Positions 1,997 to 30,036 of a DNA stretch of 32,348 bases are shown piece after piece. The notes beneath the pieces were generated by a model. That model ran no database searches. It was not told the DNA's origin and saw nothing but the letters and a program-made list of their open reading frames with translations. The position numbers and the translations under genes were made by a program. The first letter of the stretch is position 1; each line of letters starts with the position of its first letter. The stretch is from NCBI GenBank assembly GCA_021790425.1, contig JAJYEA010000021.1, forward strand, positions 1-32,348, given 5' to 3'. The DNA is from Thermoplasmata archaeon. GTDB taxonomy: Archaea; Thermoplasmatota; Thermoplasmata; Lutacidiplasmatales; UBA184.

Positions 1997-2125
1997 GCTA
2001 GTCCTCGTTGAGCCCGGAATCCGCAGAAAGTTGGGCCGTTACGGCGTGGTTCCCGGCCGGAGTCCCCTATGGGAGTTGACGACGCCCGGAGAAATCCCGT
2101 TGCGGGCTTTTTGCGGCAACGACTT

Positions 2126-2131
2126 CTTAAA
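2126..2131 (+). promoter_or_regulatory. TATA-like box for purF
   Basis: CTTAAA within an AT-rich pocket. It is only about 20 nt from the ATG at 2148 but 28-29 nt from the in-frame GTG at 2157, which bears on the choice of purF start. Confidence 0.5.
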
Positions 2132-2147
2132 CCCCGCACTCTCTCCC

Positions 2148-3617: not shown

Positions 3618-3674
3618 TCCCGCCGGGGTCCCTCTCCGGCTTTTCCGGAAGGCTTCGCTCGACTACCTGCGGGA

Positions 3675-4811: not shown

Positions 4812-4868
4812 GACCCGGAAGAGGAGCAGAGGTACAAGAACCGGTGGGTCAGTCCTCCGCGCACATCT

Positions 4869-4876
4869 CATATCTC
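4869..4876 (+). promoter_or_regulatory. TATA-like box for the alcohol dehydrogenase
   Basis: CATATCTC is centred about 36 nt before the ATG at 4908, allowing a leader of about 10 nt. It lies in the 96-bp divergent region shared with the M20 peptidase. Confidence 0.4.
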
Positions 4877-4907
4877 TTGGAGGGTCTGCCGGACCCGGAC
4901 TGGTCGA

Positions 4908-5924: not shown

Positions 5925-5938
5925 GAGCGAACGTCAGA

Positions 5939-5993
5939 GCTGCCGGCCCGGGCAGCCCGGGTTGGGAATGAACGGTCCGAGAGAATTCCAACC
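5939..5993. terminator. Two stem-loops between convergent genes
   Basis: The 74-bp convergent space holds two inverted repeats. The first is GCTGCC/GGCAGC with a 6-nt loop (5939-5956). The second has GGTTGGGAAT pairing with ATTCCAACC across one bulged G (5960-5993), ending 5 bp before the hydrolase stop. They could help termination in both directions. Archaeal terminators usually rely on T-tracts, which are absent, so this call is tentative. Confidence 0.4.
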
Positions 5994-5998
5994 TTCGG

Positions 5999-6910
5999 TC
6001 AGTACGTGCCGGCGAAGTTCGCCCGCATCTCCGCCGCGACCGCCGGGTCTTCGAAGTAGCTGACGTGGCCCGGATCGTAGACGTCCAGGGAGGGTATGTG
6101 GAGATCGGGGAAAGCGTAGAAGTGGTTGTCCCCGAGGGCGCTGACCTCGTTCGCCGCGACCAGCCCGTCATTCGCGTGGTACTGGAAGTAGGTGGCGCTC
6201 CACGTGGGGTCCGCCTCGCCGGCGTAGGCGAGCCACTCGGCGTGGGGGTAGTTGGCGCGGGCTTTGCTCGCGCTCGCGTTGAGCGAGGCCAGGAAGGCGC
6301 TTCCCGTCCACATCTCGGACATCTGGTAGCCGGTGGTATTGTAGAAGCCCGACCAGGCGGAACTCGGCGCCCCGCCGAGCGGCGACCCGAGGAAAACGAC
6401 GTTCCGGACCGTGACCCCGCGCAGGAGCGAGTGCTCCATCATGTACATCACCACGAGACCCCCCATGCTGTGCCCCACCAGGTCCACGGTCGCAAACGAA
6501 TACCCGATGGTGGCTTGGAGCCCCTTGGCGAGCTCGAGGCCGATCTTCTCGATGGGGGTGTAGGTGGTTCCGAAAAAGGTGGGGTCGACATAGACACGGC
6601 CGTCCGAGAAGGCCAACGTGAACTCGCCGTAGTAGGAGACCACGATCACCTGATAGCCCGCCGCGACGAGTTGACCCTCGAGATTGACCCCGTAGGTCCA
6701 GACGGTCCAGGCAGGGACCGTCGTGGGGTCGTACCCGTGGACGAGGACCACGTACTGTACTACGTGCGGCGGTGGGATGAGCGTACCACCGCGGCTCGCG
6801 AGCGATGTGGGGTGGGCAACCCCCACCGCGCTGGCCGAGGAGATCGAACTCGCCATCAGAACGATGACCACGAATACCGCCCCGGGGAGCAGGCGCATCG
6901 GTCGGAGCAT
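5999..6910 (-). CDS. Secreted alpha/beta hydrolase (lipase/esterase-like)
   Basis: About 303 residues. A signal peptide is clear: basic MLRPMR, then a hydrophobic core (AVFVVIVLMA) and a small-residue region before about residue 30. The oxyanion region is VHGYD (58-61) and the nucleophile elbow is GHSMGG (S148), as in triacylglycerol lipases and PGAP1-like esterases. An NDG segment and late LHIPSL and GHVSYF histidines are candidate triad Asp and His. NTT and NAS sequons fit an extracytoplasmic, glycosylated protein. The TATA-like ACTTAAGT at 6933-6940 is 26 nt from the ATG at 6910 but only about 8 nt from the first ATG at 6928, so 6910 is chosen. The substrate could be a lipid ester or another ester. 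Confidence 0.82.
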   Translation of the reverse strand: MLRPMRLLPGAVFVVIVLMASSISSASAVGVAHPTSLASRGGTLIPPPHVVQYVVLVHGYDPTTVPAWTVWTYGVNLEGQLVAAGYQVIVVSYYGEFTLAFSDGRVYVDPTFFGTTYTPIEKIGLELAKGLQATIGYSFATVDLVGHSMGGLVVMYMMEHSLLRGVTVRNVVFLGSPLGGAPSSAWSGFYNTTGYQMSEMWTGSAFLASLNASASKARANYPHAEWLAYAGEADPTWSATYFQYHANDGLVAANEVSALGDNHFYAFPDLHIPSLDVYDPGHVSYFEDPAVAAEMRANFAGTY

Positions 6911-6932
6911 GCGTTCGCGACGCCGCATGGCT

Positions 6933-6940
6933 ACTTAAGT
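6933..6940 (-). promoter_or_regulatory. TATA-like box for the secreted hydrolase
   Basis: ACTTAAGT is centred 26-27 nt upstream of the ATG at 6910 and too close to the ATG at 6928 to drive it. Confidence 0.5.
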
Positions 6941-7145
6941 TCGCCTTGACGAGGGGTCGGCGTGGAAGGGTTCGCCGTATCTTACACGGTGGCAAATAAG
7001 CGGGAATTCCTTTCGCTTGTCGGACTTGGCGTGAACGTCGACGTCGGACCGCAGACGATGATCGTGATTATGGCGAGGCACTAGGGGGCCGATTCTCCGT
7101 GGAAACCGATGCTGGGTCGGCCCATTCCTAGGTTTGCGATGGGGG

Positions 7146-7178
7146 ATATATACGCACGTGGTCATGTGCAAAAGGAGG
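7146..7178 (+). promoter_or_regulatory. Strong TATA box plus Shine-Dalgarno for the CDGSH gene
   Basis: ATATATA at 7146-7152 is the best TATA box in the window. The predicted transcript starts near 7175. An AGGAGG element at 7173-7178 lies 4 nt before the ATG at 7183, so this gene may combine a very short leader with a ribosome binding site. Confidence 0.6.
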
Positions 7179-7182
7179 AAAC

Positions 7183-7413
7183 ATGACGCGAATGGTACGA
7201 CACGATGCCAAGGGACCTGCGATCATCAAGGTCGGCGACAAAATGATCGGGGTGTGCCAGTGCGGGTTGAGCAAGTCCAAGCCGTTCTGTGACGGCTCGC
7301 ACAAGCAGGCGCACGACGAGAAGGCCGGATTGGTCTACATCTATGATGCCGAAGGGAAGCGCATCACCCTCGACGACCTCTTCCCGACCCCGAAGGAGGC
7401 CTTCGAGGCCTAG
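7183..7413 (+). CDS. CDGSH iron-sulfur domain protein
   Basis: A 76-residue single-domain protein with the CDGSH 2Fe-2S signature: C25 and C27 in CQCG, C36 in FCDGSH and H40 as the single histidine ligand. Such proteins carry a redox-active, pH-sensitive 2Fe-2S cluster and act in electron or cluster transfer. Short prokaryotic versions are usually soluble, and no membrane helix is seen here. The strong TATA box and good Shine-Dalgarno suggest high expression. It stands alone, divergent from the secreted hydrolase, so context gives no partner. Confidence 0.9.
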   Translation: MTRMVRHDAKGPAIIKVGDKMIGVCQCGLSKSKPFCDGSHKQAHDEKAGLVYIYDAEGKRITLDDLFPTPKEAFEA

Positions 7414-7439
7414 CGGGAGAGACAAGGCGCGGGGCTCCC

Positions 7440-7461
7440 GACCACGAGTGGTCTGAATTTA
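7440..7461. promoter_or_regulatory. Palindrome beside an AT-rich element
   Basis: GACCAC-GA-GTGGTC is a perfect 6+6 bp inverted repeat with a 2-bp centre (7440-7453), directly followed by the AT-rich TGAATTTA. The loop is too short for an RNA hairpin, so a protein-binding site is the likelier reading. No gene starts immediately downstream. Confidence 0.25.
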
Positions 7462-7561
7462 GACACTTGGGGGGGCCCCTGCGAGGCGACCCCGGCCAGA
7501 CCCGCAGAACTTCATTCGGCCACCGTCAGCTGTCGAAACCCTTCCACATTCGGTCGATGCG

Positions 7562-7569
7562 TAATATAG
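7562..7569 (+). promoter_or_regulatory. TATA-like box inside the 7414-7875 gap
   Basis: TAATATAG predicts a transcript starting near 7590. It is followed by a leader with GGGGGAAGG and a GTG start at 7606. Confidence 0.4.
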
Positions 7570-7605
7570 CTTAACTGACATCATTTAGCATGGTAGGGGG
7601 AAGGC

Positions 7606-7776
7606 GTGAGTTGCCTATCGGCTGCGGACGATCCGCAGGGGAATGCCCGGATGCGGCTGGCGCAGCTTTGCCGTGGCTTCCTTCTCACGGCCCCTACGGA
7701 TAGTCCCCGAGCTCAGGCGTTCCTGGTCACCTTTCTCCGCGAGGCGGATCGCTCATCCGCTCCGCAGGAAGCCTAG
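7606..7776 (+). CDS. Candidate small gene, 56 aa, function unknown
   Basis: This open frame occupies the middle of a 462-bp gap with no larger gene. It starts with GTG behind a purine-rich GGGGGAAGG stretch and a TATA-like box 40 nt upstream. The product has an amphipathic-looking centre (RLAQLCRGFLLTAP, AFLVTFLREAD) and no membrane helix. Third codon positions are about 68% G+C, lower than neighbouring genes by eye but not random. I see no family match. An alternative start is the internal ATG at 7651. The same transcript also opens with an ATG at 7590 in another frame that ends after 37 codons. The rest of the gap (7414-7560, 7777-7875) shows no gene. Confidence 0.35.
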   Translation: MSCLSAADDPQGNARMRLAQLCRGFLLTAPTDSPRAQAFLVTFLREADRSSAPQEA

Positions 7777-7875
7777 CGGAAACGGACCCTGGGCTCGCCG
7801 CTATCCGGTACAGCGTCCGCCGAGTTCCTTCGGGGATACTCCCAGGTTCTCGCTCGGAGGCGCCGCTTCGGTGCG

Positions 7876-8592
7876 CTAGCCCGCCAGTTCGTTCAGCAAG
7901 GTTCGCATCAGGAAGCCGGTGGCGAGGCAGGTTGCGAACACCGAAATCTTGGCCGGGTGGCTCTCTATGGTGACCGTCCGAGAACGGACCCATCCCCGGA
8001 TGACCGGTTGGCCGTGGCCGAGAACGATGAACTTTCCGGTGACCGTTTCGACGATCGTGAAGTCCGTACCTTCGTAGAGGATGTGCGAGGGTCCGAAGGA
8101 GTTGGTTTCGGTCTTCCAGCGGCTCAATCCTGATTCGATCAAGATGTTGTCTTCCGAGAACTGATAGGATACCGTTGCAATCGGCGTCTCCTCCTCCGCC
8201 CGGAAGATCCGATACCGGGTCGAGTAGAGACTGGAAGACGCGTAGACGGGCCCACATAGGTCCGAAGGGCTCGGTATTGCCCGCCACGGGGTCCGGCCGA
8301 CATCAATCCGGAAGACCCGCTTCGGCAAGTCCGCGATGGCCACGATCTCGGGGCCCGCGGGTATGCTGACCGCGTCGGCCACCGGTGAGCGAAGGGTGGC
8401 GAGACGGGAAGGGGTTGCGTAGGGTCGGTCAAAACGGACCGTGCATGCCTCCCCGACGGCGGAGGAGGCCATGTACTCTGACCAGAGTGAACGCAAGAGC
8501 CCGCAGTCCGGACATTTTGCGGAGTCGACGCCGGCGTCCGTCCCGCAAAGAGGGCACCGATGGGTCCCCGTTTCCAAATGGTCAGAGGACAT
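7876..8592 (-). CDS. Zinc-ribbon protein with a possible tubby/LURP-one-like C-terminal domain
   Basis: A 238-residue protein. Residues 13-30 form a zinc ribbon with CPLCG and CPDCG pairs (C13, C16, C27, C30). Residues 45-100 are variable. Residues 120-235 alternate short beta strands and end in a hydrophobic helix (about 214-235), which resembles the tubby-like/LURP-one/scramblase fold; this is a shape-based guess without a diagnostic motif. The ATG at 8592 lies inside the last codons of the HTH_10 regulator, an 11-bp overlap that indicates translational coupling. The pair is probably one transcript, so this protein may work with or be controlled by the regulator. Base composition of the pair looks slightly less G+C-rich than the flanking housekeeping genes. 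Confidence 0.6.
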   Translation of the reverse strand: MSSDHLETGTHRCPLCGTDAGVDSAKCPDCGLLRSLWSEYMASSAVGEACTVRFDRPYATPSRLATLRSPVADAVSIPAGPEIVAIADLPKRVFRIDVGRTPWRAIPSPSDLCGPVYASSSLYSTRYRIFRAEEETPIATVSYQFSEDNILIESGLSRWKTETNSFGPSHILYEGTDFTIVETVTGKFIVLGHGQPVIRGWVRSRTVTIESHPAKISVFATCLATGFLMRTLLNELAG

Positions 8593-9307
8593 CGGGGTTC
8601 ATCCCCTCCTTCATGATCTTTCTCTCGACCGTAGCGAGCGTCTCCGAGAGGGAGGACTTCGAGAGTCGCAGCACATGCGCAAGCTCGGTCATGGTGGTCC
8701 GTCTAGGAGTGTCCCAGTACCCCGCGGATCGGGCTATGCGGTAGATCTCCGCCTGTCGTGCGGTTAGGGTCGGGTTTCCCCGTCGGGACCGGTTGCAGTT
8801 GGTCCAAATTGTCCGGACCGTGAACTCCTGCTTCTCGGATTTGAGTTCGCCAATGAGACGCTGGGCCTTGTCCCTCGGTGCTTCGACTTGAATGAGTTCC
8901 GTGTTACCTTCCATCATCAACGGGAAGGAAGGGGGTATCTCGACCTTCTGGAGAATTTCCATCAACGGGCAGTGGTCTCTCGCCAAGCGCAGGGTCATGC
9001 CTCCCTTCCCACTCTCAAGAACGGTGATGAGGCCCCTTTGTAGGAGCGCCATCACGGTGGTCTTTTGCACCTCGTCCGAGAAGTCGCCGCTCAACCGAAC
9101 ATCCTCCAGGAAGAGGCCGTGGCCCAGGGGGAAGACTCGGAGTACCTTCACATGCACGTGGGGGAATGCGCTTGCAATGGCCCCGGCGGGGCATCCGTCA
9201 GGCGCTCTCACGCCCAGACCCATGACAATGACCGCTCCTTCGTGCTCCAGCTCGGTCAGCGGGGTCCCAAGACGGGGTTGGGGCTGGTGGTCCAGATCAG
9301 AAGACAT
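8582..9307 (-). CDS. HTH_10 (bacterio-opsin activator-type) transcriptional regulator
   Basis: About 241 residues. The C-terminal 50 residues are a typical HTH_10 domain: LTARQAEIYRIARSAGYWDTPRRTTMTELA, then LRLSKSSLSETLATVE as the recognition-helix region. The N-terminal 180 residues are a mixed alpha/beta sensor region of unknown ligand, as in haloarchaeal Bat-type regulators. The start is either ATG 9307 or the in-frame ATG 9328; neither has a close TATA box. An 18-bp perfect inverted repeat at 9341-9358 sits just upstream, and another palindromic cluster lies at 9517-9556. Both contain CCGAAC/GTTCGG half-sites, which suggests autoregulation. The stop overlaps the start of the zinc-ribbon gene. 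The domain resembles that of the second regulator at 24756. Confidence 0.8.
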   Translation of the reverse strand: MSSDLDHQPQPRLGTPLTELEHEGAVIVMGLGVRAPDGCPAGAIASAFPHVHVKVLRVFPLGHGLFLEDVRLSGDFSDEVQKTTVMALLQRGLITVLESGKGGMTLRLARDHCPLMEILQKVEIPPSFPLMMEGNTELIQVEAPRDKAQRLIGELKSEKQEFTVRTIWTNCNRSRRGNPTLTARQAEIYRIARSAGYWDTPRRTTMTELAHVLRLSKSSLSETLATVERKIMKEGMNPDVL

Positions 9308-9340
9308 CGGGTACCACCGTACGACCATGTCCGGCGCATC

Positions 9341-9358
9341 CGTTCGGAACTCCGAACG
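9341..9358. promoter_or_regulatory. 18-bp inverted repeat upstream of the HTH_10 regulator
   Basis: CGTTCGGA-AC-TCCGAACG is a perfect palindrome with 8-bp arms and a 2-bp centre. It lies 13 bp upstream of the possible ATG at 9328. The half-site GTTCGG/CCGAAC recurs in the cluster at 9517-9556. It is a good candidate operator; the binding protein is unknown. Confidence 0.5.
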
Positions 9359-9484
9359 CCACGGCAGCGACCTCGCGGGGGCTCTCCGACCCCTTCTCGC
9401 ACCTGCGGCTCCGGCGTGGCGGGGCCAACTCCAGCAGGGGGGATCGGAGGATGCCGAGGGAACCGTCGGGGCGCTCCATAGTGA

Positions 9485-9492
9485 TAGTATTC
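9485..9492 (-). promoter_or_regulatory. Possible TATA element for the regulator operon
   Basis: GAATACTA on the minus strand is the only AT-rich element in the 289-bp space upstream of the regulator. It would give a leader of about 155 nt. The match to a TATA consensus is weak. Confidence 0.25.
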
Positions 9493-9516
9493 ACATGCTG
9501 CTACGTCAATTCTGTG

Positions 9517-9556
9517 CCGAACCCGGTAGGCGAACATGTGAGCCGAACATGTTCGG
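9517..9556. promoter_or_regulatory. Cluster of phased CGAAC sites ending in a 14-bp palindrome
   Basis: CGAAC occurs at 9518, 9531 and 9544, exactly 13 bp apart. The last copy forms the left arm of the perfect palindrome CCGAACATGTTCGG (9543-9556). The second copy (CGAACATGTG) nearly repeats its core. The cluster lies just upstream of the possible TATA element for the HTH_10 operon and downstream of the GT4 gene. The remainder of 9329-9617 holds no convincing gene. Confidence 0.5.
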
Positions 9557-9617
9557 GTATGTCGCTGGCAGGCGGTTGGGACGCCAGGAGGACGTAAAAG
9601 GGCCCTCGCCCGGCTCG

Positions 9618-10739
9618 TTAGGTCGACTTGACCGCTTCACCGTAGGCTTCGAGGTAGCGGTCCACGACGGCATCCCACTCCCAGGACCGGGAGGCCGTCC
9701 GTGCCTTGAGGCCCATCTCCCGACACAACCCCTCGTTCCGGACGAGCTCGACGAGGTGTGACCGGAACTCCTCCTCCGTCCGCGCGACGCGACCGCCTCC
9801 TTCCCGCGACAGGGCGCGGGCCGCACCCACGTCGAAGGAAACGAACGGAAGACCGGAGGCCATCGCCTCCACGAGGCTGATCCCGAACCCCTCGTACTGC
9901 GCTCCCAGCGCATAGAGGTCGGATTCCCGATAGGCGGAGACCACCTCGGCCCGGTTGAGCGCCCCGAGGAACTTGACCTCCACTCCCAGTCGCGATGCTT
10001 GGGTGGCCACATGGGTCTGGTCCGAGGCAGACCCGGGAACGTCGCGTCCCACGACGACGAGGGATGCCAGGTCCTTGACCGGTTCGAGGGCGCTCACCAG
10101 TCGGTCGACCCTCTTGTTCGGCCAGAGCCCCCCCACGTACAGGACCAGGACCGGGCGGCTCACCCCCCACCGCTCCCGGAGGCGAAGGGGCGGGGACGGG
10201 TGTGAGAAATCCTTGAGGTCGATCCCTTCTCCCACCACTCGCACCTTGTCCTGAGGGTACCCGAAGCGGGTGATCCTTCCCGCTTCCCCCTCCGTGAGGG
10301 CTAGGTAGGCCTGGAACGCGCGCAGGCGGAAGGGGAGGTAGCGGCCGAAGTAGAGGCGGTTCAGCGGAGAAGGGTCCATCGCCAGCTGGTAGAAGTCGTG
10401 CGGGGTGATCACCTGGGGTCCGCCGAAGACCTCCGCCACCGGGAAGTAGAAGTCCGCACACCAGATCCGGTTCCCGCTCATGTGGAGCAGGTCGTAGTCG
10501 AGAGAACGCAGCGCGTGCCAGTATCCCGAGGGGATCCGGAAGCCGCCCACCCGACGCATGGGGATCCTACGCACCTCGATGCCGTCCAGGATCTCCAGGC
10601 CGGGCACGCCCGGCTCGGACTGGGTGAGGACCGTGACCTTGTTCCCGCGACGATGCAGAGCCTGCGCCAGTCCCAGCGTCCATCGCTCGGTCCCCCCTTC
10701 CGCCGGAAAGAAGCGGTGATTGACCAAGAGGACGTGCAT
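9618..10739 (-). CDS. GT4-family glycosyltransferase
   Basis: A 373-residue GT-B enzyme. The N-terminal domain opens with HVLLVNHRFFPAEGGTERW, the usual GT4 acceptor-side glycine-rich start. The C-terminal domain has VLYVGGLWPNKRVDRLV, the KFLGAL strand, and the EX7E-like stretch YEGFGISLVEAMASGLP, which binds the nucleotide-sugar. It should transfer a sugar from an NDP donor with retention, in the cytoplasm. It is transcribed away from the other glycosyltransferases, but a divergent region of 284 bp links it to the locus. The ATG at 10739 has a CCAAAAGCC element about 45 nt upstream; no strong TATA is seen. Donor and acceptor are unknown. Confidence 0.88.
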   Translation of the reverse strand: MHVLLVNHRFFPAEGGTERWTLGLAQALHRRGNKVTVLTQSEPGVPGLEILDGIEVRRIPMRRVGGFRIPSGYWHALRSLDYDLLHMSGNRIWCADFYFPVAEVFGGPQVITPHDFYQLAMDPSPLNRLYFGRYLPFRLRAFQAYLALTEGEAGRITRFGYPQDKVRVVGEGIDLKDFSHPSPPLRLRERWGVSRPVLVLYVGGLWPNKRVDRLVSALEPVKDLASLVVVGRDVPGSASDQTHVATQASRLGVEVKFLGALNRAEVVSAYRESDLYALGAQYEGFGISLVEAMASGLPFVSFDVGAARALSREGGGRVARTEEEFRSHLVELVRNEGLCREMGLKARTASRSWEWDAVVDRYLEAYGEAVKST

Positions 10740-11023
10740 CGACCGGCGAACCCTTCTTCCATAGGTGTTCGAGGGGATAGGCTTTTGGTAACCCCGGTGG
10801 CCCAGGCAGACCGCCGGCCCCTGTTCCTAGGGTAGCCCGGCTCGTGTTCAATTTGCGCAGGCCGAATGTAGCTAAATCGGGCACGTAGACCGGGAGCGCT
10901 ATCAGATCCTCAGACGAAAACTCGCCGGTCGGAGCGGGGTAGCGTCGGGTTCGGAAACCCTCTCCCTTTGGCCACTAAAGCTCCGCCAACGTTTTAAAGG
11001 GCACCCGGTATGGAAATGTTATA
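10740..11023. promoter_or_regulatory. Divergent intergenic region of the glycan locus
   Basis: The 284-bp space between the GT4 on the minus strand and the GT2 on the plus strand contains no convincing gene. The plus promoter is TTTTAAA at 10992-10998, 29 nt before the ATG at 11024. A small inverted repeat GGGTT-CGGA-AACCC lies at 10947-10960, upstream of that box. AT-rich patches near 10787 and 10850 could serve the minus gene. Confidence 0.5.
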
Positions 11024-11857
11024 ATGCAGACTAGCGACGGATTTAGGACTTCGGCCCCGAGCGAAGCGAGTCCTGCTTCCGCATACCCCACAATGGTCTC
11101 GCTCTCGCACCCCCGAGCCATCGCGGCCGCTGAGAAGATGCCCGTCTCCTCGCGCAACGACGACTCGGTGATGGTGATCCCCGCGTACAACGAAGCCCTC
11201 GGTGTCGGTTCGGTGATCGACGACCTCCGCCGCGACTTCACCCAGAAGATCCTGGTGGTCACGCGCCCGTCCACGGACGGCACGGAGGAGGCCGCGCGCC
11301 AGCACGGCGCGGAGGTCATCCAACAGCCCGGCCGGGGGAAGGGTGACGCGATCCGCGCAGCGCTCCAGTACATCAGCCAGCACTACCCCTCCGTCCTGGT
11401 GGTCGGGTTGATCGATGCCGACTGCACGTACGCCACCGCGCAGCTGCCCTTGATGCGGTCCGTCCTGATGAGCCACCCTTCGATCGGGATGGTCGTGGGC
11501 GCCCGCAGCACGTTCCGGAACAACGGCGTGCGCTCGCTCAGCTATGCCCTGGGGAACCACACCCTCGCCCGACTCCATTCCTGGCTTAACAGCGTCTCGA
11601 TGAGGGACCCGCTCTCGGGCCTTCGCCTCATCCGGGTCGAGGCGCTGTACCGCTGGACCCCCCGTGCGGCCGGGTTCGACATCGAGTGCGAGATCAACCA
11701 CCACGTCCAGAACGATGCCGGGCTGGAGGTCGCCGAGATCCCGGTGGAGTATCGTCAGCGCGTGGGACGGAAGAAGCTCGGTATCGTCCACGGGTTCCGC
11801 ATCCTCGCCCGCATCTTCCAGCTACGCTTCCAGGCCCGGCCAACGGCCCCGGAGTGA
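11024..11857 (+). CDS. GT2-family glycosyltransferase (DPM1/DPG synthase-like)
   Basis: 277 residues. The GT-A domain begins at about residue 48: VMVIPAYNEALGVGSVIDDL, then LVVTRPSTDGT, GRGKGDAIR and the metal-binding GLIDADCTY (D131, D133), then MRDPLSGLRLI and a late GRKKLG motif. This arrangement resembles dolichyl-phosphate sugar synthases and related GT2 enzymes that load a lipid carrier. There are no C-terminal membrane helices. The first 47 residues are low-complexity and may be dispensable; ATG 11138 is an alternative start. I keep 11024 because TTTTAAA at 10992-10998 sits 29 nt upstream, giving a leaderless transcript. It opens the plus-strand part of the locus and may make a lipid-linked sugar donor; this is inference. 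Confidence 0.85.
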   Translation: MQTSDGFRTSAPSEASPASAYPTMVSLSHPRAIAAAEKMPVSSRNDDSVMVIPAYNEALGVGSVIDDLRRDFTQKILVVTRPSTDGTEEAARQHGAEVIQQPGRGKGDAIRAALQYISQHYPSVLVVGLIDADCTYATAQLPLMRSVLMSHPSIGMVVGARSTFRNNGVRSLSYALGNHTLARLHSWLNSVSMRDPLSGLRLIRVEALYRWTPRAAGFDIECEINHHVQNDAGLEVAEIPVEYRQRVGRKKLGIVHGFRILARIFQLRFQARPTAPE

Positions 11858-11935
11858 ACGCAAGCCCGGGTGGTTGGGGAACCCTCCGGCCGTGAGCCTT
11901 CCCGTCATTCCCGGGCGGAGCCCAAGGCCCCATCG

Positions 11936-13078
11936 ATGACGGACACCTCACCGTTGAACGTCCTCCACGTGGCGGGGAACTACCCGATCCCTCCCCTGGG
12001 CGGGATGGAGGCGGTCACGTACTTCCTCCCGCAGGAGCTGGCGCGCCAGGGACACCGGGTGCGCGTCTATGGGGGAAGCCCCACTCCTCGTCACGACGTC
12101 GTCTCGGGAGCGGAGTTCCGCGGGCTCCCCGCCTTCCGTTTCAGCAACTGGGTGAGGGTACCCTCTTGGTCGGCCTACCGTTTCCTCCTCCAGGGGCTCG
12201 AGTGGGCCGAAGTGGTCCATATCCACAATCCCCCCGAGGTCATCCCGCTGTTGGGAGGGCGGGCCGCCCTCCGGGAGGGGAAGCCCGTGGTGTACTCCGT
12301 GCTCTCGCCCGGCACGCTCCGGCGGCACCCCAGCCTCCCGTACCGGGCCTTCGGGTCCGTGGACGAGCTGCTGGTGACCCATCAGCTCCGGCGGGCCACG
12401 GCCGTGCAGGTGAAGAACTCCCTCGATGAGGTGGCCATGAAGGGTCTCAACGACCGGGTGCGGCTCATCCCCGACGGGATCGAGACGGGGTTCTTCGTGC
12501 CGGCTCCCGGCCCCTCGACCTTCCTCGAGGACCACGGTCGGGTCGGGCGGGAACCCTTCCTGCTCTACGTGGGCCGCATTCACCCCCTCAAGGGGGTCTC
12601 CGACTTCGTCCGCATGGCCGGACTGCTCCGCCGGGATCATCCCCACTTGCTCGCGTCCGTCGTGGGGCCGGGCACCCCGGAGGAGACCGCCCAGCTCCGG
12701 AGCACCATCCAGCGCGAGGGGCTCGAGGGGACGGTGGAGTACGTCGGTACCGTCACCACCGAAGAGAAGATCCGCGCCATCGACGCTGCCACCGTCGTCG
12801 TGGTGCCGAGCCAGTCGGACTTCGTGGAGGGCTTCAGCATCATCTCGAGCGAGGCCTGGGCCCGACGGAAGCCCGTCGCCGCCTACCCGGTCGGGGCCCT
12901 CAAGGTGCGTGTCCAGAACGGGGTCAACGGATACCTCGCGGACCGGGTCGACCCGAAGGCACTCGCCACTGCCGTGACCAAGTGCCTGTCGCTCACGGTG
13001 CAGGAGGTCCCCCGGGACGTGATGCCGTGGTCGGAGGTCGCGCGGGAGTTCGGGACGCTCTACCGAGGCGGACCGTGA
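11936..13078 (+). CDS. GT4-family glycosyltransferase
   Basis: A 380-residue GT-B enzyme. The N-terminal domain has NVLHVAGNYPIPPLGGMEAV, and the C-terminal domain has LLYVGRIHPLKGVSDFV, VEYVGTVTTEEKI and DFVEGFSIISSEAWARRKPV, which carries the retaining EX7E motif. The stop codon shares bases with the GTG start of the next glycosyltransferase (GTGA), so the two are translationally coupled. The ATG at 11936 is chosen because the glycine-rich start follows within 25 residues; the longer frame back to 11870 has no supporting signal. It lies 78 bp after the GT2. Confidence 0.88.
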   Translation: MTDTSPLNVLHVAGNYPIPPLGGMEAVTYFLPQELARQGHRVRVYGGSPTPRHDVVSGAEFRGLPAFRFSNWVRVPSWSAYRFLLQGLEWAEVVHIHNPPEVIPLLGGRAALREGKPVVYSVLSPGTLRRHPSLPYRAFGSVDELLVTHQLRRATAVQVKNSLDEVAMKGLNDRVRLIPDGIETGFFVPAPGPSTFLEDHGRVGREPFLLYVGRIHPLKGVSDFVRMAGLLRRDHPHLLASVVGPGTPEETAQLRSTIQREGLEGTVEYVGTVTTEEKIRAIDAATVVVVPSQSDFVEGFSIISSEAWARRKPVAAYPVGALKVRVQNGVNGYLADRVDPKALATAVTKCLSLTVQEVPRDVMPWSEVAREFGTLYRGGP

Positions 13079-14226
13079 AGCTCGCGCTGGTCACCCAGAA
13101 CGTCTCGACCTCTCTCTCGGACAAGCCGAACCTCATGGCTCAAGGGCTCGTAGAGCTCGGTCATGAGGTCCACCTGATCAGCACCGGGGTGCCCGCCACG
13201 CGGGAGCTCGACTACCGGGGAGCCCGGACCGAAAGGGACCCCCCGTCGGCGTCGGTGCACACGAAGGTCCGCTCCCTGGACCTGGGGAGGGACGTCGTGT
13301 TGGTGTCGCCCTTCAGTCGGGCCCTCCGGGAGGACTTCGATGCGGTGCTCCTGCACGAGGACTACCCTCCCTTGTCCAAGGTCGGCTTCCTCTGGGCCCG
13401 TCGTCGCGGGTGTCCGGTCGGCATGCTCTTCGAGCGGTACTACTATCCGCCGGGGATTCCCATCTCCCTCACGTTGAAGGTCCTCGACCGGACGTGGCAC
13501 CGGCTGATGTGGAGGCGGACCCAATGGCTCCTCTACCACTCACGGGCCTCCCTGCGCTTCTTCACCGGGATGGGCGCCCCGGAGGACCGATCCCACTACT
13601 TCCCAGGATTCATCGACTCCCAGCTGTTCCGGGAGAGCGCCGACAAGGCGCGTCGCGATCCCTCCCGGGCGCGTCCCGAACCCTTGGACGTGATCTCCGT
13701 GGGGCGCCTGACCCCCTACAAGGGGCAGGACGTTCTGATCCGTGCCGTTGCGCTCCTGAAGGAGTCGGGTCGGAAGGTCCACCTCCACATCGTCGGGCGC
13801 GGGGGCATGGAGGCGGAACTTCGTGCGATGGTCGACCGGCTGGGACTGCAAGGTATGGTGGTCATCGACACCCGCTACGTGGCCCCCCTGGATGTGCCGG
13901 CACGCCTCACCACCGCCTCGATCTACGTCCAACCGAGCCGGATCGAGCCCTTCGGTATGGCCACCGTCGAAGCGATGGCGGCCGGGCTCCCCGTCATCGC
14001 CTCCTCCGTGGGCGGCCTGGCCGACTCGGTCGTCGACGGCGTCACCGGGCGATTGGTCCCGCCTGACGACCCTCACCGCCTCGCCGGGGCCCTCGGGTCC
14101 CTGATCGAGGATGCGGATCGTGCCCGTCAGATGGGGCTCCAAGGGCAGCGTCGGGCCCATGAGACCTATGACTATCACGTGGCCTGCGCCAAGCTGGATG
14201 CCATGTTGAAGGAGGTCTCCAGGTGA
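13075..14226 (+). CDS. GT4-family glycosyltransferase
   Basis: A 383-residue GT-B enzyme starting with GTG in the GTGA overlap with the preceding gene (VKLALVTQNVSTSLSDKPNL). The donor-binding half is clear: ISVGRLTPYKGQDVLI, LHIVGRGGMEAELR, and QPSRIEPFGMATVEAMAAGLPVIASSVGG, which includes the EX7E motif. It should use an NDP-sugar with retention. A second frame upstream (to 12982) overlaps the previous gene and is rejected. The GT4 pair probably adds consecutive sugars to the same glycan; that is inference from coupling. Confidence 0.88.
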   Translation: MKLALVTQNVSTSLSDKPNLMAQGLVELGHEVHLISTGVPATRELDYRGARTERDPPSASVHTKVRSLDLGRDVVLVSPFSRALREDFDAVLLHEDYPPLSKVGFLWARRRGCPVGMLFERYYYPPGIPISLTLKVLDRTWHRLMWRRTQWLLYHSRASLRFFTGMGAPEDRSHYFPGFIDSQLFRESADKARRDPSRARPEPLDVISVGRLTPYKGQDVLIRAVALLKESGRKVHLHIVGRGGMEAELRAMVDRLGLQGMVVIDTRYVAPLDVPARLTTASIYVQPSRIEPFGMATVEAMAAGLPVIASSVGGLADSVVDGVTGRLVPPDDPHRLAGALGSLIEDADRARQMGLQGQRRAHETYDYHVACAKLDAMLKEVSR

Positions 14227-14275
14227 ACGGCCCTTGGTGCGTCTTGCCTGGGAGTTCCCGGAGGACCGGCGGGCG

Positions 14276-16624
14276 ATGAACTCCCTCGTGATGGTGACGC
14301 TGCTCGTGCTGCCCGTCTTCGCCGTGCTCCTCATTGCCCTCGGATCCGCGGTCCGGTGGCTCCTCGGGTCCCTCTTGGACCGTGACTTTCGCCGTCCCTT
14401 CGTGAGCACGGGAGATCTCCTCACCCGCGTTGTCACCGACTTCGCCTTGGGCGGGGCGGCGATCACCCTTCTCTTCCTCTTCTTCGGTCTCGCGGGGGTA
14501 CGTCTCGGCGCCCCACTCGTCTACACCGTGGTCGCGGTCACCGCGGTGACCTTGGTCTACCGCGCCACCCTCCTGCGTGCCACGCTCGTGCCCTCCCTCG
14601 TCCGGTTCCTCCGGGAGACCCGGTGGGAGATCCTCGGCCTCGCCGTCATCGGCGTGATCTCGTGGCTCATCCGGATGGTGCCGTACACCGGTCTCTACGT
14701 GTTCGACGGGAATGACATCCGTCAGTACACCCTGCTGACCCAGCTCATCATCGCGAACGGATCCCTCCCGACGTCCTGGGGCGCGTTCGCATACCCGTCC
14801 TGGAACCTGGTGTGGACCAACAACCATCTCATCTTCACGGGTACGGAGTCCATCTTCGCGTTCACGAGCTTCGTCGTGCCCGTGGACCTCCCCCAGCTCA
14901 CCTCCGCCGTGGCGCTGCTCTTCAACGCCGCCGTCCCGATCCTGGGGTACGTGGTCGCCCGCCGGCTCTTCCCGCAGCAAGGGAAGGCCGTCGGCTACGG
15001 CACGGCCCTGGCGCTCGCGGTCCTGGCGGCCTACCCTCTCTTCTTCGAGCAGTGGGGAGGGATCGATGAGATCACGGGCTGGGTCGTGCTCCTGGGCTTC
15101 GTCGCCCATTTCCTGACGGACCCCGCGCCCGGCCAGCTCGGGTGGAAGCACCACGTGACGGGCGCACTCTTCCTGGGCGGCCTCCTGGTGATCTCCCCGA
15201 TCGTCTTCGCGTACGCCGTGTGCTTCCTGGTGGCCTATGCCGGGGAGTCCCTGGTGCGCCGGGCTTCCTGGCGCTCCTCGCTCGGCCGGCCCGGGTTCGT
15301 GCTCCTCCTGGGCCTCGTGCTCTCCTCCCCGCTCCTCATCCGCGGCATCCAGAACGCGCTCCAAACGGGCCAGAACCCCGGTTCCGCGGGCTGGGGAACC
15401 TTCGCGACCGCGCCGATCCTCCGGTACGGGGAGTGGGGCGGGTCGTTCTACCGGCTCGTCACGCTGACCGCCTTCGAGTATGCATGGCCCATGGTCGTAA
15501 CGGGGGGCATCGGGTTGATCTTGGCGCTGGTCCTCCGGAAGGTCTACCGGCACGCCTTCCTCCTCGCGTTCTGGGCGGGGCTGCTCTTCCTCCTGAACGA
15601 GAACGGGCCCTTCGGGCTCTTCCTGGTCCCCTATCCCGCCTGGAACTCGATCTACCCGGACCGGGTGGCGGAGTTCCTCTTCGTGATCGCGAGCCTCGGG
15701 TTCGGGGTCTCGGTCTCCGTCCTGGTCCGGGGGTTGCGGGGGCGCAAAGAAACCGGTCCGGTTCCCCGGACCCGTCTTCGGCGTTTCTTTCCGGGATGGG
15801 TCGTAAGGGTGATCGCGGCCTCCTTCACGGTGGTGCTCATTGTCGCAAGCTCCAATCAGGCCTACTACACCTACAAGGCCGACACCGCCACCGTGATCTG
15901 GGGGGAATCGCTGGTGGGGCAAGACCTGGGGGCGTACCAGTGGATCTCCGCCCACGCTCCCGCGGGAACCACCATCCTTGTGGATAACGCCGACTCTGGG
16001 ACCTGGATCCCCGAGTTCGACGGGATACGCGTCTATCCCTACAGTGAGCTCATCTCCAACAACTCCATCCTGAACCAGTACCGGTCGATGGCAGCGCAAA
16101 TGGCCATGAAGGGCAAACCGGACTTCGTGCTCTACTCCCAGGTCGGAGAGCAGTTCCACCTTGGGTACGCCTTCTACGGTGGGAAGCACGCCTACGGCCT
16201 GAGCAACTCCATACCCCTGGGAGCCCTGGTCGACTCGCCACCGGTGAAAGGCTACACCAGTCACCTGACGACCAGTTGTGCCTCCTCCTCGAACTTCACC
16301 CTGACGATCTGCGGCGCGAACGGCTCCGCCGTGATCGCCGGGCCGATCGTGCTCTCGCTCGAGGTCTGGCGAAACGCCACGGTCGTGGGGACCTATGTCG
16401 TCGACGTTCCCGCGAACACATCCTTCACCTACGTGAACCCGGGTCCGGGCTCACCCTTCCCCGGCACTTGGAGCGCGCACATCAGCGCCGTGGCTCCCGG
16501 CACCATCGTCTACCGCGGCTCGAACGAGCGGACCTTCGTGATCGCGCTCGATGCGGGCTACTTCGTTAGCCAGTGCAGCGCCCTTCCGCTCGAGGGAAGC
16601 TGTGCCCCCAGCGGGAGTTCATGA
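14276..16624 (+). CDS. Large polytopic membrane protein, GT-C-like, first of a tandem pair
   Basis: 782 residues. About a dozen hydrophobic segments run to residue 526, followed by a C-terminal domain of about 255 residues without membrane helices. That domain is likely extracytoplasmic, with sequons such as NFT, NGS, NAT and NTS. The first large loop carries FDGNDIRQYTLL (D147), the kind of acidic first-loop motif seen in GT-C glycosyltransferases that use lipid-linked donors. Conserved with the next gene are WTNNH/WVNNH, QWGGIDEITGW (260-265) and LNENGPFGLF. No WWDYG motif of STT3/AglB is present, so it is not a standard oligosaccharyltransferase. The ATG at 14276 has GGAGG 11 nt upstream; TTG/GTG starts at 14234-14237 are possible. 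The GT-C call is fold-level inference. Confidence 0.7.
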   Translation: MNSLVMVTLLVLPVFAVLLIALGSAVRWLLGSLLDRDFRRPFVSTGDLLTRVVTDFALGGAAITLLFLFFGLAGVRLGAPLVYTVVAVTAVTLVYRATLLRATLVPSLVRFLRETRWEILGLAVIGVISWLIRMVPYTGLYVFDGNDIRQYTLLTQLIIANGSLPTSWGAFAYPSWNLVWTNNHLIFTGTESIFAFTSFVVPVDLPQLTSAVALLFNAAVPILGYVVARRLFPQQGKAVGYGTALALAVLAAYPLFFEQWGGIDEITGWVVLLGFVAHFLTDPAPGQLGWKHHVTGALFLGGLLVISPIVFAYAVCFLVAYAGESLVRRASWRSSLGRPGFVLLLGLVLSSPLLIRGIQNALQTGQNPGSAGWGTFATAPILRYGEWGGSFYRLVTLTAFEYAWPMVVTGGIGLILALVLRKVYRHAFLLAFWAGLLFLLNENGPFGLFLVPYPAWNSIYPDRVAEFLFVIASLGFGVSVSVLVRGLRGRKETGPVPRTRLRRFFPGWVVRVIAASFTVVLIVASSNQAYYTYKADTATVIWGESLVGQDLGAYQWISAHAPAGTTILVDNADSGTWIPEFDGIRVYPYSELISNNSILNQYRSMAAQMAMKGKPDFVLYSQVGEQFHLGYAFYGGKHAYGLSNSIPLGALVDSPPVKGYTSHLTTSCASSSNFTLTICGANGSAVIAGPIVLSLEVWRNATVVGTYVVDVPANTSFTYVNPGPGSPFPGTWSAHISAVAPGTIVYRGSNERTFVIALDAGYFVSQCSALPLEGSCAPSGSS

Positions 16625-16697
16625 GGAAAGCGGTCCGTTGCGTTGACCGTACCCCGGGCTCGGGGGCGGCCCCGCCGGGGGCCGCGGGAGGGCCGCC

Positions 16698-19061
16698 ATG
16701 ATCCCCCTCGCCGAGGAGACGCAGGTCGCCCTTCCCTTCGTGCTCGTGGTGCTTCTCCTCGTGGGCACGACCACGAAGTGGCTGGTCGGTTCTCTGTCGG
16801 CCCGGCGGTGGGACCGTCCCTTCGCGTTCTCGGGAGAGCCCGTCTTCCGGGTCCTCGAGGACTTCGCGCTGGGGATCGCAGTGGTCCCCCTCCTCTTCCT
16901 GTTGCTGAACGGCGCGAGGGTCCCGCTGGGGGCGCCCCTGGTCTACGGGTTGGTCGGGCTGTCCCTCGTCGTCTCGGCCTACCGTCTCTACCTATTGGGG
17001 TCCCAGTTCCTCCCACGGCTTCGCGCGGCCGTCGGGGAACGACGGCGCGAGGTACTCGTGTTGATAGGAGTCTCCGCGGCCGCGCTCGCGGTCCGCCTGG
17101 CTCCGTACTCCGGTCAGTTCGTCCTCGCCGGCAACGACATCCGTCAATACACCCTGCTGAGCCAGCTCCTGGTCTCCAATCATGCGCTCCCCACGGGGTG
17201 GGGCCCCTACGCCTTCGCAGCGTGGAACCCGGCCTCGTGGGTGAACAATCACCTGCTCTTCACCGGCAGCGAGTCGGTCTTCGCCTTCCTGAGCTTCGTG
17301 ACCCCGGTCGACTTCCTCCAGCTTCCCTCCGCGACGGTGTTGATCCTGAATGCCGCGATCCCCGCGATGGGATACGGCGTATCGCGACGCCTGTTCCCCC
17401 GCGCCTCCTATCTTCCCGCCTACGCCACCGCCGCCGTTCTTGCGGTGGCGGCGGCCTACCCCCTCTACTTCGACCAGTGGGGCGGCATCGATGAGATCAC
17501 GGGTTGGGTCGTCCTGCTCGGCTTCGTGATCGTCTTCCTGGCCCCACGGGCCCGGGAGCGGCTCGAGTGGGATCGCTTGGTGCTCGGGGCGCTCCTGCTG
17601 GGCGGCCTCTTCGTGATCTCGCCGATCGTCTTCGTCTACGGGCTCTGTTTCTTGATCGCCCTGGTTTTCGAGTCCTTGCTCCGGGGCGAGGCCCGTCGCC
17701 TGACGTTCCTTTCGGCCGTTGTCACGCTCTTCCTCGGGCTCCTCTTGGCGTCCCCGCTGCTCGTGGCGGGGCTCCACAACCTGGTCCAGAACCCCCTCTC
17801 TCCGGGATCTACGGGCTGGGGAAGTTTTGCGACGGCCCCCATCCTGCGGTACGGAGACTGGGGTGGTTCCTTCTTCCGAGCGGTCACGTTGAACTCCTTC
17901 TTCTATTCGATCCCCGTGGTCGTGGCGGGAGAAGGGGGCCTCGCGCTCGTGGTCCTGCGTCGCCGAGAGTACCCCCACGGACCGATGCTGGCCCTCTGGG
18001 CGCTCTTCCTCTTCCTGCTCAACGAGAACGGTCCCTTCGGCCTCTTCTGGGTCCGCTACCCGGCGTGGACCGCGATCTTCCCCGACCGCCCGGCCGAGTT
18101 CCTCTTCGTCCTCCTCAGCGTGGCCTTCGGGCTCACCGCGGAGTTCTTCTGGACCCGCTCGAACTTCGTTCGCGGGAAGAGGCCGGTGGATTCCACCCTG
18201 CCGCGTCCTCCTCCCCGCCGGGTCCGACGGGCGGTGGCCTCCGTGCTCCTCGTGGTGCTGCTCGTGGGCGCCGGGGTCGCGATCGTCCAGACGAACCTCG
18301 AGAACGAATCCACCGTCCAATGGAGTTCCTCGCTCACCGCACAGGACCTCGCGGCGTTCGAGTGGATGGGGTCGCATGTTCCCCGGGGATCCACCATCCT
18401 CGTCAACAATGCGGATGCCGGGACGTGGATCCCGGATTTCGAGGGCCTTCGGGTCTACCCGAATCCGCCGCTGATCACGAACGCGGGTGTCGACCAGGAG
18501 TACCAGACAATGGTGAACCAGCTCAGCCAAGGGTCGTCTCCCAACTTCCAGGCCTATTCCTCGGTGGGCCGCGCCAACAACCTCACCTACGCCTACTACG
18601 GGGACGAACATGCGTACAACCTCTCGAGTCCCTTCTCGGTCAATGTGCTGGTGGACGCTCCTCCCGTTCAGAACTACACCACGGCCCTGGTCACCGGTTG
18701 CCCCACGTCGACGCCGTTCAGCATTCTCCTGTGCCGGGACAATGACACCGTGCAGGTGCAGGGGCCCATCGTCCTGTACGTGAACGTCTCCCACGACCTG
18801 ACTCCCTACGCGGAGTATGTCGTCCCGGTGCCCGCGAACGTCACCTTCACGTACCTGAACCACGAGTACACGTACCGATGGCAGGGGGAGTGGAATGCAC
18901 GCATCTCGGCCGCGCCTCCTGCCCGCGTGCTGTATCGTTCCTCCGACGAGCGGGTCTTCGTCCTGGGGCTCGACACGGGCTACTTCGCGACGGCATGCGC
19001 CGACCTTCCTTCGCTCGGCGCGTGCACCCCTTCGGCCCCGGCCTCGGTGGGGGGAGGATGA
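16698..19061 (+). CDS. Large polytopic membrane protein, GT-C-like, second of a tandem pair
   Basis: 787 residues and clearly a paralogue of the preceding protein along its full length. Shared blocks are GNDIRQYTLL (D147 in the same position), NNHLLFTG, QWGGIDEITGWVVLLGFV (W261-E266), VISPIVF, GWGSFATAPILRYG, LFLLNENGPFGLF, PDRPAEFLFV, and TILVNNADAGTWIP at the start of the extracytoplasmic domain. The first-loop Asp at 144 of the first copy is not conserved (LAGND instead of FDGND), which points to D147 as the more important residue. Several N-glycosylation sequons lie in the C-terminal domain. A GGGAGG stretch lies 6 nt before the ATG. The stop overlaps the region used to start the next glycosyltransferase. 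The pair may form a heterodimer or act on different acceptors. Confidence 0.7.
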   Translation: MIPLAEETQVALPFVLVVLLLVGTTTKWLVGSLSARRWDRPFAFSGEPVFRVLEDFALGIAVVPLLFLLLNGARVPLGAPLVYGLVGLSLVVSAYRLYLLGSQFLPRLRAAVGERRREVLVLIGVSAAALAVRLAPYSGQFVLAGNDIRQYTLLSQLLVSNHALPTGWGPYAFAAWNPASWVNNHLLFTGSESVFAFLSFVTPVDFLQLPSATVLILNAAIPAMGYGVSRRLFPRASYLPAYATAAVLAVAAAYPLYFDQWGGIDEITGWVVLLGFVIVFLAPRARERLEWDRLVLGALLLGGLFVISPIVFVYGLCFLIALVFESLLRGEARRLTFLSAVVTLFLGLLLASPLLVAGLHNLVQNPLSPGSTGWGSFATAPILRYGDWGGSFFRAVTLNSFFYSIPVVVAGEGGLALVVLRRREYPHGPMLALWALFLFLLNENGPFGLFWVRYPAWTAIFPDRPAEFLFVLLSVAFGLTAEFFWTRSNFVRGKRPVDSTLPRPPPRRVRRAVASVLLVVLLVGAGVAIVQTNLENESTVQWSSSLTAQDLAAFEWMGSHVPRGSTILVNNADAGTWIPDFEGLRVYPNPPLITNAGVDQEYQTMVNQLSQGSSPNFQAYSSVGRANNLTYAYYGDEHAYNLSSPFSVNVLVDAPPVQNYTTALVTGCPTSTPFSILLCRDNDTVQVQGPIVLYVNVSHDLTPYAEYVVPVPANVTFTYLNHEYTYRWQGEWNARISAAPPARVLYRSSDERVFVLGLDTGYFATACADLPSLGACTPSAPASVGGG
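19053..19057 (+). promoter_or_regulatory. Shine-Dalgarno that may decide a CTG start
   Basis: GGAGG is spaced 8 nt before the CTG at 19066. It also touches the out-of-frame ATG at 19058, which would end after three codons. Confidence 0.4.
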
Positions 19062-19065
19062 GCCG

Positions 19066-20250
19066 CTGACGCGCAAGGCGGCCCGAGAACCCACCCCGAA
19101 GGACGCCCCCTCCCTTCCCCGGATCTCCGTCTACTACTTCCGACCGATGGACGAGCCCTACCATGGGGCTTCCGTGGCCCTGCGGAACCTCGTCCAACGT
19201 CTTCGAACCGACTTCGCCGTGGACGTGGTCGGTCCACGGGCCTCCGGGAATCCGGCCGGGGGGCCGGACGTCTCGAACTCCTTGATCGGCATCCGCTACC
19301 TGGTCTCCTCCGTCCTTGGGGCGCTGCGCTTCCAAGCGCGGCAGGCGACGTTACCTCGGAGCGAGCGTTCCCGCCTGGTGGTGGCGTATGATGTCTATCT
19401 GGCAGGGGTGTCCGCGATCTGGGCCCGGGTGACCGGGACCCCGTTCGTCTACCTCCCCTTGGACTCGGACCGTGTGGTCTCCCAGGGATTCGTCAAGGGT
19501 GGATACGCGGGGGGAAGTGCCCGGCGATGGCTTCGTGGGCCGAACGAGCGGATGGCCCTCCGAACGGCCGATCTCGTGGTCGTGCTTTCCCCCTTCATGC
19601 GGCAGGAGCTCGTGAAAGACGGGATCCCGGAGCGTCGCGTGATGGTCGTCGGGGTGAAGCGGCCGGCCCCACGACGGGACCCTGTGGCGGTCGCCGAGTG
19701 GCGGCGACGGTTGAAGCTGGAGGGACGCACCGGCGTGATCTTCCTGGGAAGCTTCCGCTACCCTCCCAACGTCCAGGCGTTCCAGTTCCTGCGCGAGATG
19801 GTGCGGTCCAGCTTCCCTTTCCGCCCCGACGGACCGCAGTTCGTGGTGGCGGGATTCGACTCGGAGGGGTATGCTGATGTTACGATACCCAACCTGACCG
19901 TGGTCGGGAGCGTCTCGGACCTCGACGGGCTCCTCGAAGCGTGCGATGTCGCGGTCGCCCCCATGGACGTGCAGGGCGGGACGAGCCTCAAGATGATCGA
20001 CTACGTCCTGCACGGGCTCCGGGTCGTCGCGACCCCGGAGGCGACCGCGGGGGTCGCCGCTTCCCCGCTCATCCACACGGTCGCGCGGGAGCGGTTCGTG
20101 GAGGGGTTACATGCGGTGCTCGACGAGGCGGGTCGGTCCCCCCGACTCGATCCGGACCCCTCCTACCTCTCGCTCTACGTGGGCTCGGACGACCTTCGGG
20201 AGTTCGTCGAATCGGCCCGCCGTCTCATCGACCGGCACGCCGGCCGGTAG
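19066..20250 (+). CDS. GT4-like glycosyltransferase with probable non-ATG start
   Basis: About 394 residues. The N-terminal strand RISVYYFRPMDEPYHGAS is the GT-B start. The donor half has GVIFLGSFRYPPNVQAF, NLTVVGSVSDLDGLLEACDVAVAPM and GGTSLKMIDYVLHGLRVVAT, typical of GT4-like enzymes. The frame has no ATG, GTG or TTG between the end of the previous gene and residue 27 of the domain. An ATG at 19147 would delete the first strand, and the upstream ATG at 18895 would overlap the membrane protein by 167 bp. A CTG at 19066 has GGAGG 8 nt upstream, so I use it. The 3' end overlaps the convergent FkbM methyltransferase by 26 bp. Confidence 0.75.
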   Translation: MTRKAAREPTPKDAPSLPRISVYYFRPMDEPYHGASVALRNLVQRLRTDFAVDVVGPRASGNPAGGPDVSNSLIGIRYLVSSVLGALRFQARQATLPRSERSRLVVAYDVYLAGVSAIWARVTGTPFVYLPLDSDRVVSQGFVKGGYAGGSARRWLRGPNERMALRTADLVVVLSPFMRQELVKDGIPERRVMVVGVKRPAPRRDPVAVAEWRRRLKLEGRTGVIFLGSFRYPPNVQAFQFLREMVRSSFPFRPDGPQFVVAGFDSEGYADVTIPNLTVVGSVSDLDGLLEACDVAVAPMDVQGGTSLKMIDYVLHGLRVVATPEATAGVAASPLIHTVARERFVEGLHAVLDEAGRSPRLDPDPSYLSLYVGSDDLREFVESARRLIDRHAGR

Positions 20251-21172
20251 GCGCGTAGAAGACGTTGCGGCAACGGTCGAACCCCGGCACGGGGAAGACC
20301 ATGAGCTCCACGGCGTGACGCCGGGCGTAGCCCAGGGCGGTCAGATGGCGCTCCACCTCGCGGTCGAGCCGGAGGGAATGCGTTTCGAGGATGATCCAGG
20401 GCGCCTGTTCCTGGAGGAGGCGCCGCGCCCCCCGGAGCACCCGCATCTCGGCCCCCTCCACATCGATCTTGAGGAGCGTCACCCCCTTCAAGTCGAAGGA
20501 GTCGATCGTGCACAGGGTGACGGGGGTGGCGGTCCCGGCCGGTCTTCCGGGCGAGGGGGGATCTTCCCTCCCCGGGGTGAGGTCCACGTCAGAGACGAAA
20601 GAACGGACGGTGTGGACCCGGGTCTCCCGGTTCAGCCGGAGGTTGGCGTTCAGTACGTCGAAGACCCAGGGTACCGGCTCGAACGCATGCACCTGGGGGG
20701 TCCCGAGCGCCCGGGTGCAGAGGAGGGAGAAGTCTCCGAATTGTGCCCCCACATCCAACACGGTACCGTGGAACGCGGGCAAGAAATCCTCGAAGCGCGT
20801 GTAGATCCGGTCGCGGAAGACCTCGCAAAGGAACTCGCCCGCGGTCTCCGGGGTGAACCGGATCCCGAACTCCCGTTCCGCGATCTGCCGTGCCTCCTGA
20901 CCCCGTTGTCGCTCCCAGCGGTTCCAAGGAAAGATGACCTTCCCCAGCGAAGGGACGAGCCGGAGATGCAGCTCGAGCCACTGCCGTGTCGAATAGCGCC
21001 CCTCCTCGGACTCTGCCGCACCGGCTGAGGTCGAAGGAGGCGTGCCCAGCAGCCCTCGTTCCCACTCGAGAAGCCTCCAGAGCCGGCGGGCGGGGGGCAA
21101 CGTCGGTTGGTTCAACACCCCGAGCGCCGCCTCAGCCTCGGCCGCGGCGGACCGGGCCCCTTCCTGCGTCAT
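20225..21172 (-). CDS. FkbM-family SAM-dependent methyltransferase
   Basis: 315 residues. The first 110 residues are an uncharacterised helical region. The FkbM core follows: TVLDVGAQFGDFSLL for SAM binding, HAFEPVPWVFDVL, TLCTIDSFDLKGVTLLKIDVEGAEMRVLRGA and LETHS. FkbM-type enzymes O-methylate sugars or polyketides, and they are common in surface-polysaccharide loci. That fits its place at the edge of the glycosyltransferase run, though it is convergent and so separately transcribed. It shares 26 bp of 3' end with the last GT4. The ATG at 21172 has no strong TATA nearby; CACTTAATG at about 21246-21254 would give a leader of roughly 50 nt. Confidence 0.8.
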   Translation of the reverse strand: MTQEGARSAAAEAEAALGVLNQPTLPPARRLWRLLEWERGLLGTPPSTSAGAAESEEGRYSTRQWLELHLRLVPSLGKVIFPWNRWERQRGQEARQIAEREFGIRFTPETAGEFLCEVFRDRIYTRFEDFLPAFHGTVLDVGAQFGDFSLLCTRALGTPQVHAFEPVPWVFDVLNANLRLNRETRVHTVRSFVSDVDLTPGREDPPSPGRPAGTATPVTLCTIDSFDLKGVTLLKIDVEGAEMRVLRGARRLLQEQAPWIILETHSLRLDREVERHLTALGYARRHAVELMVFPVPGFDRCRNVFYAPTGRRAGR

Positions 21173-29944: not shown

Positions 29945-30036
29945 CACTCGCGCGGCGGGCCTTTCCCGGGGGGGCACGGCGGCCCCCCGGTGACCGCCGC
30001 AGGTTTGATAGCGGGCCATTGCTGGGAGGGGCCAAG

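Follow-up and report, generated by a model that had tools for sequence, protein, structure and literature searches.

Characterised relatives of PMT_2 (PF13231), a GT-C family of Dol-P-mannose-protein mannosyltransferase-like or ArnT-like proteins, use polyprenyl-P-sugars. The combination of a polyprenyl-P-sugar synthase with a GT-C enzyme is an established extracytoplasmic design (PMC11127046), and in the three-component extracytoplasmic glycosylation systems (GtrA/GtrB/Gtr*; GT136, PMC11127046) the synthase gene lies near the GT-C gene. In the GT-CA enzyme PimE, the first-loop Asp, D58, is the catalytic base and is held by the Tyr at +4, Y62 (PMC12041525).

The window analysed here, i.e., the whole stretch of 32,348 nucleotides from an uncultured Thermoplasmata archaeon, likewise contains a putative polyprenyl-P-sugar synthase gene near genes for GT-C-like polytopic proteins. 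In contrast to the GtrA/GtrB/Gtr* systems, the locus is archaeal, encodes two paralogous GT-C-like proteins and includes GT4 genes, and none of the scanned proteins of the window was recognised as a flippase. Judged from the sequence, the two paralogues probably form an unnamed family of GT-C-type (GT-CA-like) glycosyltransferases and would depend on a Dol-P-sugar and finish a surface glycan.

The paralogous pair and its gene neighbourhood

The initial annotation described two adjacent polytopic proteins of about 780 residues with shared motifs, flanked by GT4 genes. Both ORFs, the GT4 genes before and after them (Table 1) and the four motifs were confirmed: GNDIRQYTLL (residues 145-154), QWGGIDEITGW (259-269 in protein 1, 260-270 in protein 2), LNENGPFGLF (440-449 and 441-450) and NADxGTWIP (571-579). 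The two proteins are 49% identical end to end (630 bits). Third-codon-position GC of 0.89 and 0.86 supported both genes as genuinely coding. Four homologues start in register with the ATG at 14276. Two long antisense frames (14042-16264 and 16992-19094) were rejected as GC-rich shadow frames, homologues existing for the sense proteins. No third copy was found in the source genome.

Table 1. Features of the glycosyltransferase run and its borders; G031 is a genome of another genus described below.
Feature	Position	Strand	Remarks
GT4	9618..10739	-	Top NCBIfam match Agl16 (far under cut-off); divergent from the run; absent from the G031 module
GT2, AglJ / dolichyl-phosphate-hexose-transferase-like	11024..11857	+	Presumed polyprenyl-P-sugar (donor) synthase
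GT4	11870..13078	+	Ortholog of G031 GT4c (43%); true start possibly nearer 11936
GT4	12982..14226	+	Ortholog of G031 GT4a (43%); true start probably near 13018
GT-C-like polytopic protein 1	14276..16624	+	782 aa
D147 codon of protein 1	14714-14716	+	
WGGIDE of protein 1	residues 260-265		
LNENGP of protein 1	residues 440-445		
C-terminal extracytoplasmic domain of protein 1 (predicted)	from ~residue 532		
GT-C-like polytopic protein 2	16698..19061	+	787 aa; paralogue in tandem with protein 1 and sharing its motifs
GT4	19069..20250	+	Ortholog of G031 GT4b (42%); mechanical ORF begins at 18895, within protein 2
FkbM-type methyltransferase	20225..21172	-	Convergent with the last GT4; absent from the G031 module

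The run reads GT2-GT4-GT4-pair-GT4, all on the plus strand, and is followed on the minus strand by the FkbM-type methyltransferase gene. This gene converges with the last GT4 gene, the two sharing about 26 bases at their ends, and its product could possibly methylate the glycan. The GT2 matched NCBIfam AglJ at 6.4e-38, under the curated cut-off. A further GT2 gene lies at 30019-30831, far from the run.

Relatives in other genomes

Searches across 103 family genomes and 400 class genomes found full-length relatives of the pair in only two others: Thermoplasmata archaeon YF1.bin117 (G003), with one copy, and G031, with two convergent copies. Together with the window pair they make up the five full-length homologues used below. 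Scans of genome contigs returned one relative only, and scans of viral contigs none.

The G031 cluster contains one GT2, three GT4s and two paralogues, the same set as in the window in a rearranged order; the GT2s are 49% identical and the GT4s 43, 43 and 42%. Orthologs of the window GT2 at about 50% identity occur in only three other genomes of the 103. The lone G003 homologue adjoins no glycosyltransferase genes; it is flanked by a large, secreted PKD/phosphoesterase-like protein and by a beta-propeller protein (L046:10203-13499 and 17620-19998). The repeated placement beside glycosyltransferase genes was seen as the orthologous GT2/GT4 set in two genera, and not for the G003 copy.

In the trees, the members of the window pair were sisters (100/100), as were those of the G031 pair (94/87), and every window-G031 cross-pairing was rejected (AU p <= 4.3e-5). 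Hence either each pair goes back to a duplication of its own, or the copies were homogenised.

Relationship to GT-C enzymes

Database annotation of the pair was scant. Neither protein matched NCBIfam, no meaningful sequence match to solved structures was found, and searches of Pfam gave no match to MFS, to STT3 or, at E<=1, to PMT_2. The sole Pfam match was to DUF6541 (PF20176), with scores of 23.7 and 26.8 for the window pair and a further score of 21.7, all below the gathering cut-off of 29 that defines membership; two of the five homologues had no match to it. The G003 homologue is collinear with the DUF6541 model over residues 57-588, although also below the cut-off. DUF6541 is itself a family of no assigned function, and a search of one literature collection found no paper naming DUF6541 or PF20176.

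Profile comparison was more informative. The five homologues were used as the hhalign query (the core profile) against PMT_2 (12 GT-C proteins), STT3-like, DUF6541-like and MFS sets from related genomes, together with reversed versions. The core aligned with PMT_2 at a probability of 91.5% (E 8.5e-7, query columns 117-302, in the N-terminal half that spans the membrane) and with the DUF6541-like set at 71%, whereas the MFS and STT3-like sets reached 0.3% each and the reversed controls at most 1.5%. Splitting the PMT_2 set into halves gave 80% and 74%; 19 of 20 block-shuffled queries stayed at 1.7% or less and one reached 10.7%. Single-sequence comparisons with PMT_2 were mostly weak. In the alignment, D147 coincides with the Asp in the DEGxY loop motif of PMT_2, the query NDIRQYTLLTQLIIANGSLP standing opposite MDEGVYLNAAATITRGGVP.

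No variation was seen among the five homologues at D147, R149, H184, E191, D264, E265, N441, D462 or D573, and WG(G/A)IDE is kept in each. Y151, four residues past D147 and replaced by F in one homologue, repeats the spacing of D58 and Y62 in PimE. Hydropathy and K/R counts predict about 14 helices with the N-terminus outside. The D147 loop (139-206), with a single K/R, is predicted to lie outside, as are WGGIDE, LNENGP and the C-terminal domain by hydropathy and positive-inside charge. The acidic first-loop residue of GT-C type proposed in the initial annotation therefore stands, being both invariant and aligned with the PMT_2 loop Asp, and the large extracytoplasmic domain agrees with prediction.

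By profile, the pair shares with PMT_2 the outer-loop DxxxY...G..P motif and the helices that follow. It departs from that family in having GxDIR instead of DE, three predicted helices ahead of the one leading into the D147 loop and a large C-terminal outer domain. Several traits of GT-C (GT-CA) enzymes were found: homology to an accepted GT-C family, through PMT_2 though with the STT3-like set unmatched; a polytopic core with an extracytoplasmic active loop, as predicted; and a conserved acidic residue, D147, within the first of the long outer loops. The AlphaFold models, with a pLDDT of 40 for the full protein (three sequences) and 37 for the C-terminal domain alone, were too poor for a comparison of folds. 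It is the remote homology that suggests a GT-C fold.

The core profile also matched in 33 of the 103 family genomes, mostly through proteins of about 700 aa and best in their DLxAxxW...P region. The hhalign alignment of the core with this wider family spans 610 columns (99.8%) and sets D147 of GxDIR and D264 of WGGIDE against the invariant Asp of NxxDGS and GSxDF. The Asp aligned to D147 is invariant in 21 of 21 members, and Pfam gave no meaningful match in any of the 21 scanned. Conservation of D147 and WGGIDE, as anticipated earlier, was seen among the five homologues (with A for the second G allowed); of WGGIDE, the wider family keeps just the D. In one genome (G101), a wider-family member divergently adjoins orthologs of the window GT2 and of one GT4. 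Of 22 wider-family members, 7 had a glycosyltransferase gene at a distance of 5 kb or less, as did 1 of the 19 MFS controls. The difference is weak and in part a product of selection: two of the 22 entered the count with their context already known. Loci of the wider family include L009-L037, L048:15723-17798 and L147:9809-11956. The family, GT-C-like as well, shows two motif types, YDGS and YDSS, and GT4 neighbours seem confined to the former.

An AglB/STT3 identity of the pair was rejected, in line with the initial annotation: WWDYG is absent from both proteins and there is no STT3 profile match. The pair shares with AglB/STT3 a polytopic N-terminal half followed by a large outer C-terminal domain. 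The same genome encodes its own WWDYG-bearing AglB of about 2,189 aa (L191:1171-7737, minus strand; G000:C129), which makes the pair unlikely to be the oligosaccharyltransferase. In that AglB the STT3 part is followed by several CarboxypepD_reg / SdrD_B-type domains, and similar open frames of 2,100-2,400 aa occur in several related genomes. Another GT-C cluster of the source genome, L193 (G000:C135, minus strand), consists of three tandem open frames of 1,110-1,139 aa with PMT_2 matches (1567-4983, 4880-8293 and 8297-11626).

Proposed function and alternatives

For donor, acceptor and catalysis we infer the following route. The AglJ-like GT2, presumed to be the natural donor synthase for the pair, would load a hexose onto polyprenyl (dolichyl) phosphate at the cytoplasmic face. 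The GT4 enzymes would draw on nucleotide sugars to assemble a surface glycan or a lipid-linked one. After flipping, the pair would move the sugar from polyprenyl phosphate onto the glycan at the outer face; D147 would act as the base in catalysis, and the acceptor would be bound by the C-terminal extracytoplasmic domain.

The earlier proposal of a glycosyltransferase or ligase pair was left open between the two. Its GT-C kinship was supported by the PMT_2 profile and the placement of D147, and the controls (transporter, reversed and block-shuffled) gave background values; nothing favours a ligase over a monosaccharide transferase, and the AglJ-like neighbour points to the latter. En bloc transfer from a pyrophosphate-linked oligosaccharide by a ligase, polymerase or O-oligosaccharyltransferase-like enzyme, instead of use of a polyprenyl-P monosaccharide, would accord with GT4 enzymes able to make a lipid-linked oligosaccharide and with a large outer domain that could accommodate a polymer or a protein as acceptor. 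We consider it distinctly unlikely, given that the matching profile is PMT_2 and not the STT3-like set, that WWDYG is found in a separate AglB and that the adjoining GT2 resembles a monosaccharide-phospholipid synthase. A non-enzymatic role, as a membrane transporter or a flippase for glycans that carries an extracytoplasmic domain, would suit polytopic proteins in a cluster that lacks a recognised flippase; with the MFS profile at background and the conserved charged motifs predicted on the outer face, as fits a GT-C loop motif, this is highly improbable.

Within the GT-C interpretation, labour might be divided between the copies of an obligate heteromer, one catalytic and the other supporting, as in PMT1/PMT2 and EmbA/EmbB. 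Both genomes with the full glycosyltransferase module have two copies that group by genome, which agrees either with a pair having been selected for more than once or with homogenisation. Yet every invariant acidic residue is kept in both copies, so that neither looks inactivated, a single copy suffices in G003, and the sister grouping in G031 is the less firm of the two; a heteromer of this kind seems unlikely.

Most likely, the GT-C-type pair is a new family within a known enzyme class and not a new kind of system. A bolder version, which we regard as rather doubtful, would place the proteins, together with the wider Thermoplasmata family of ~700 aa, in an archaeal GT-C family that is new at the rank of a CAZy family, with a paralogue pair as the catalytic unit, re-created independently in two genera and coupled to its own Dol-P-sugar synthase. 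As the pair and the wider family are without usable annotation, counts of the glycosyltransferases that act at the outer face in Thermoplasmata are probably too low. Little is known of the surface glycans of this lineage, and the run offers a donor synthase and a transferase that can be tested as partners.
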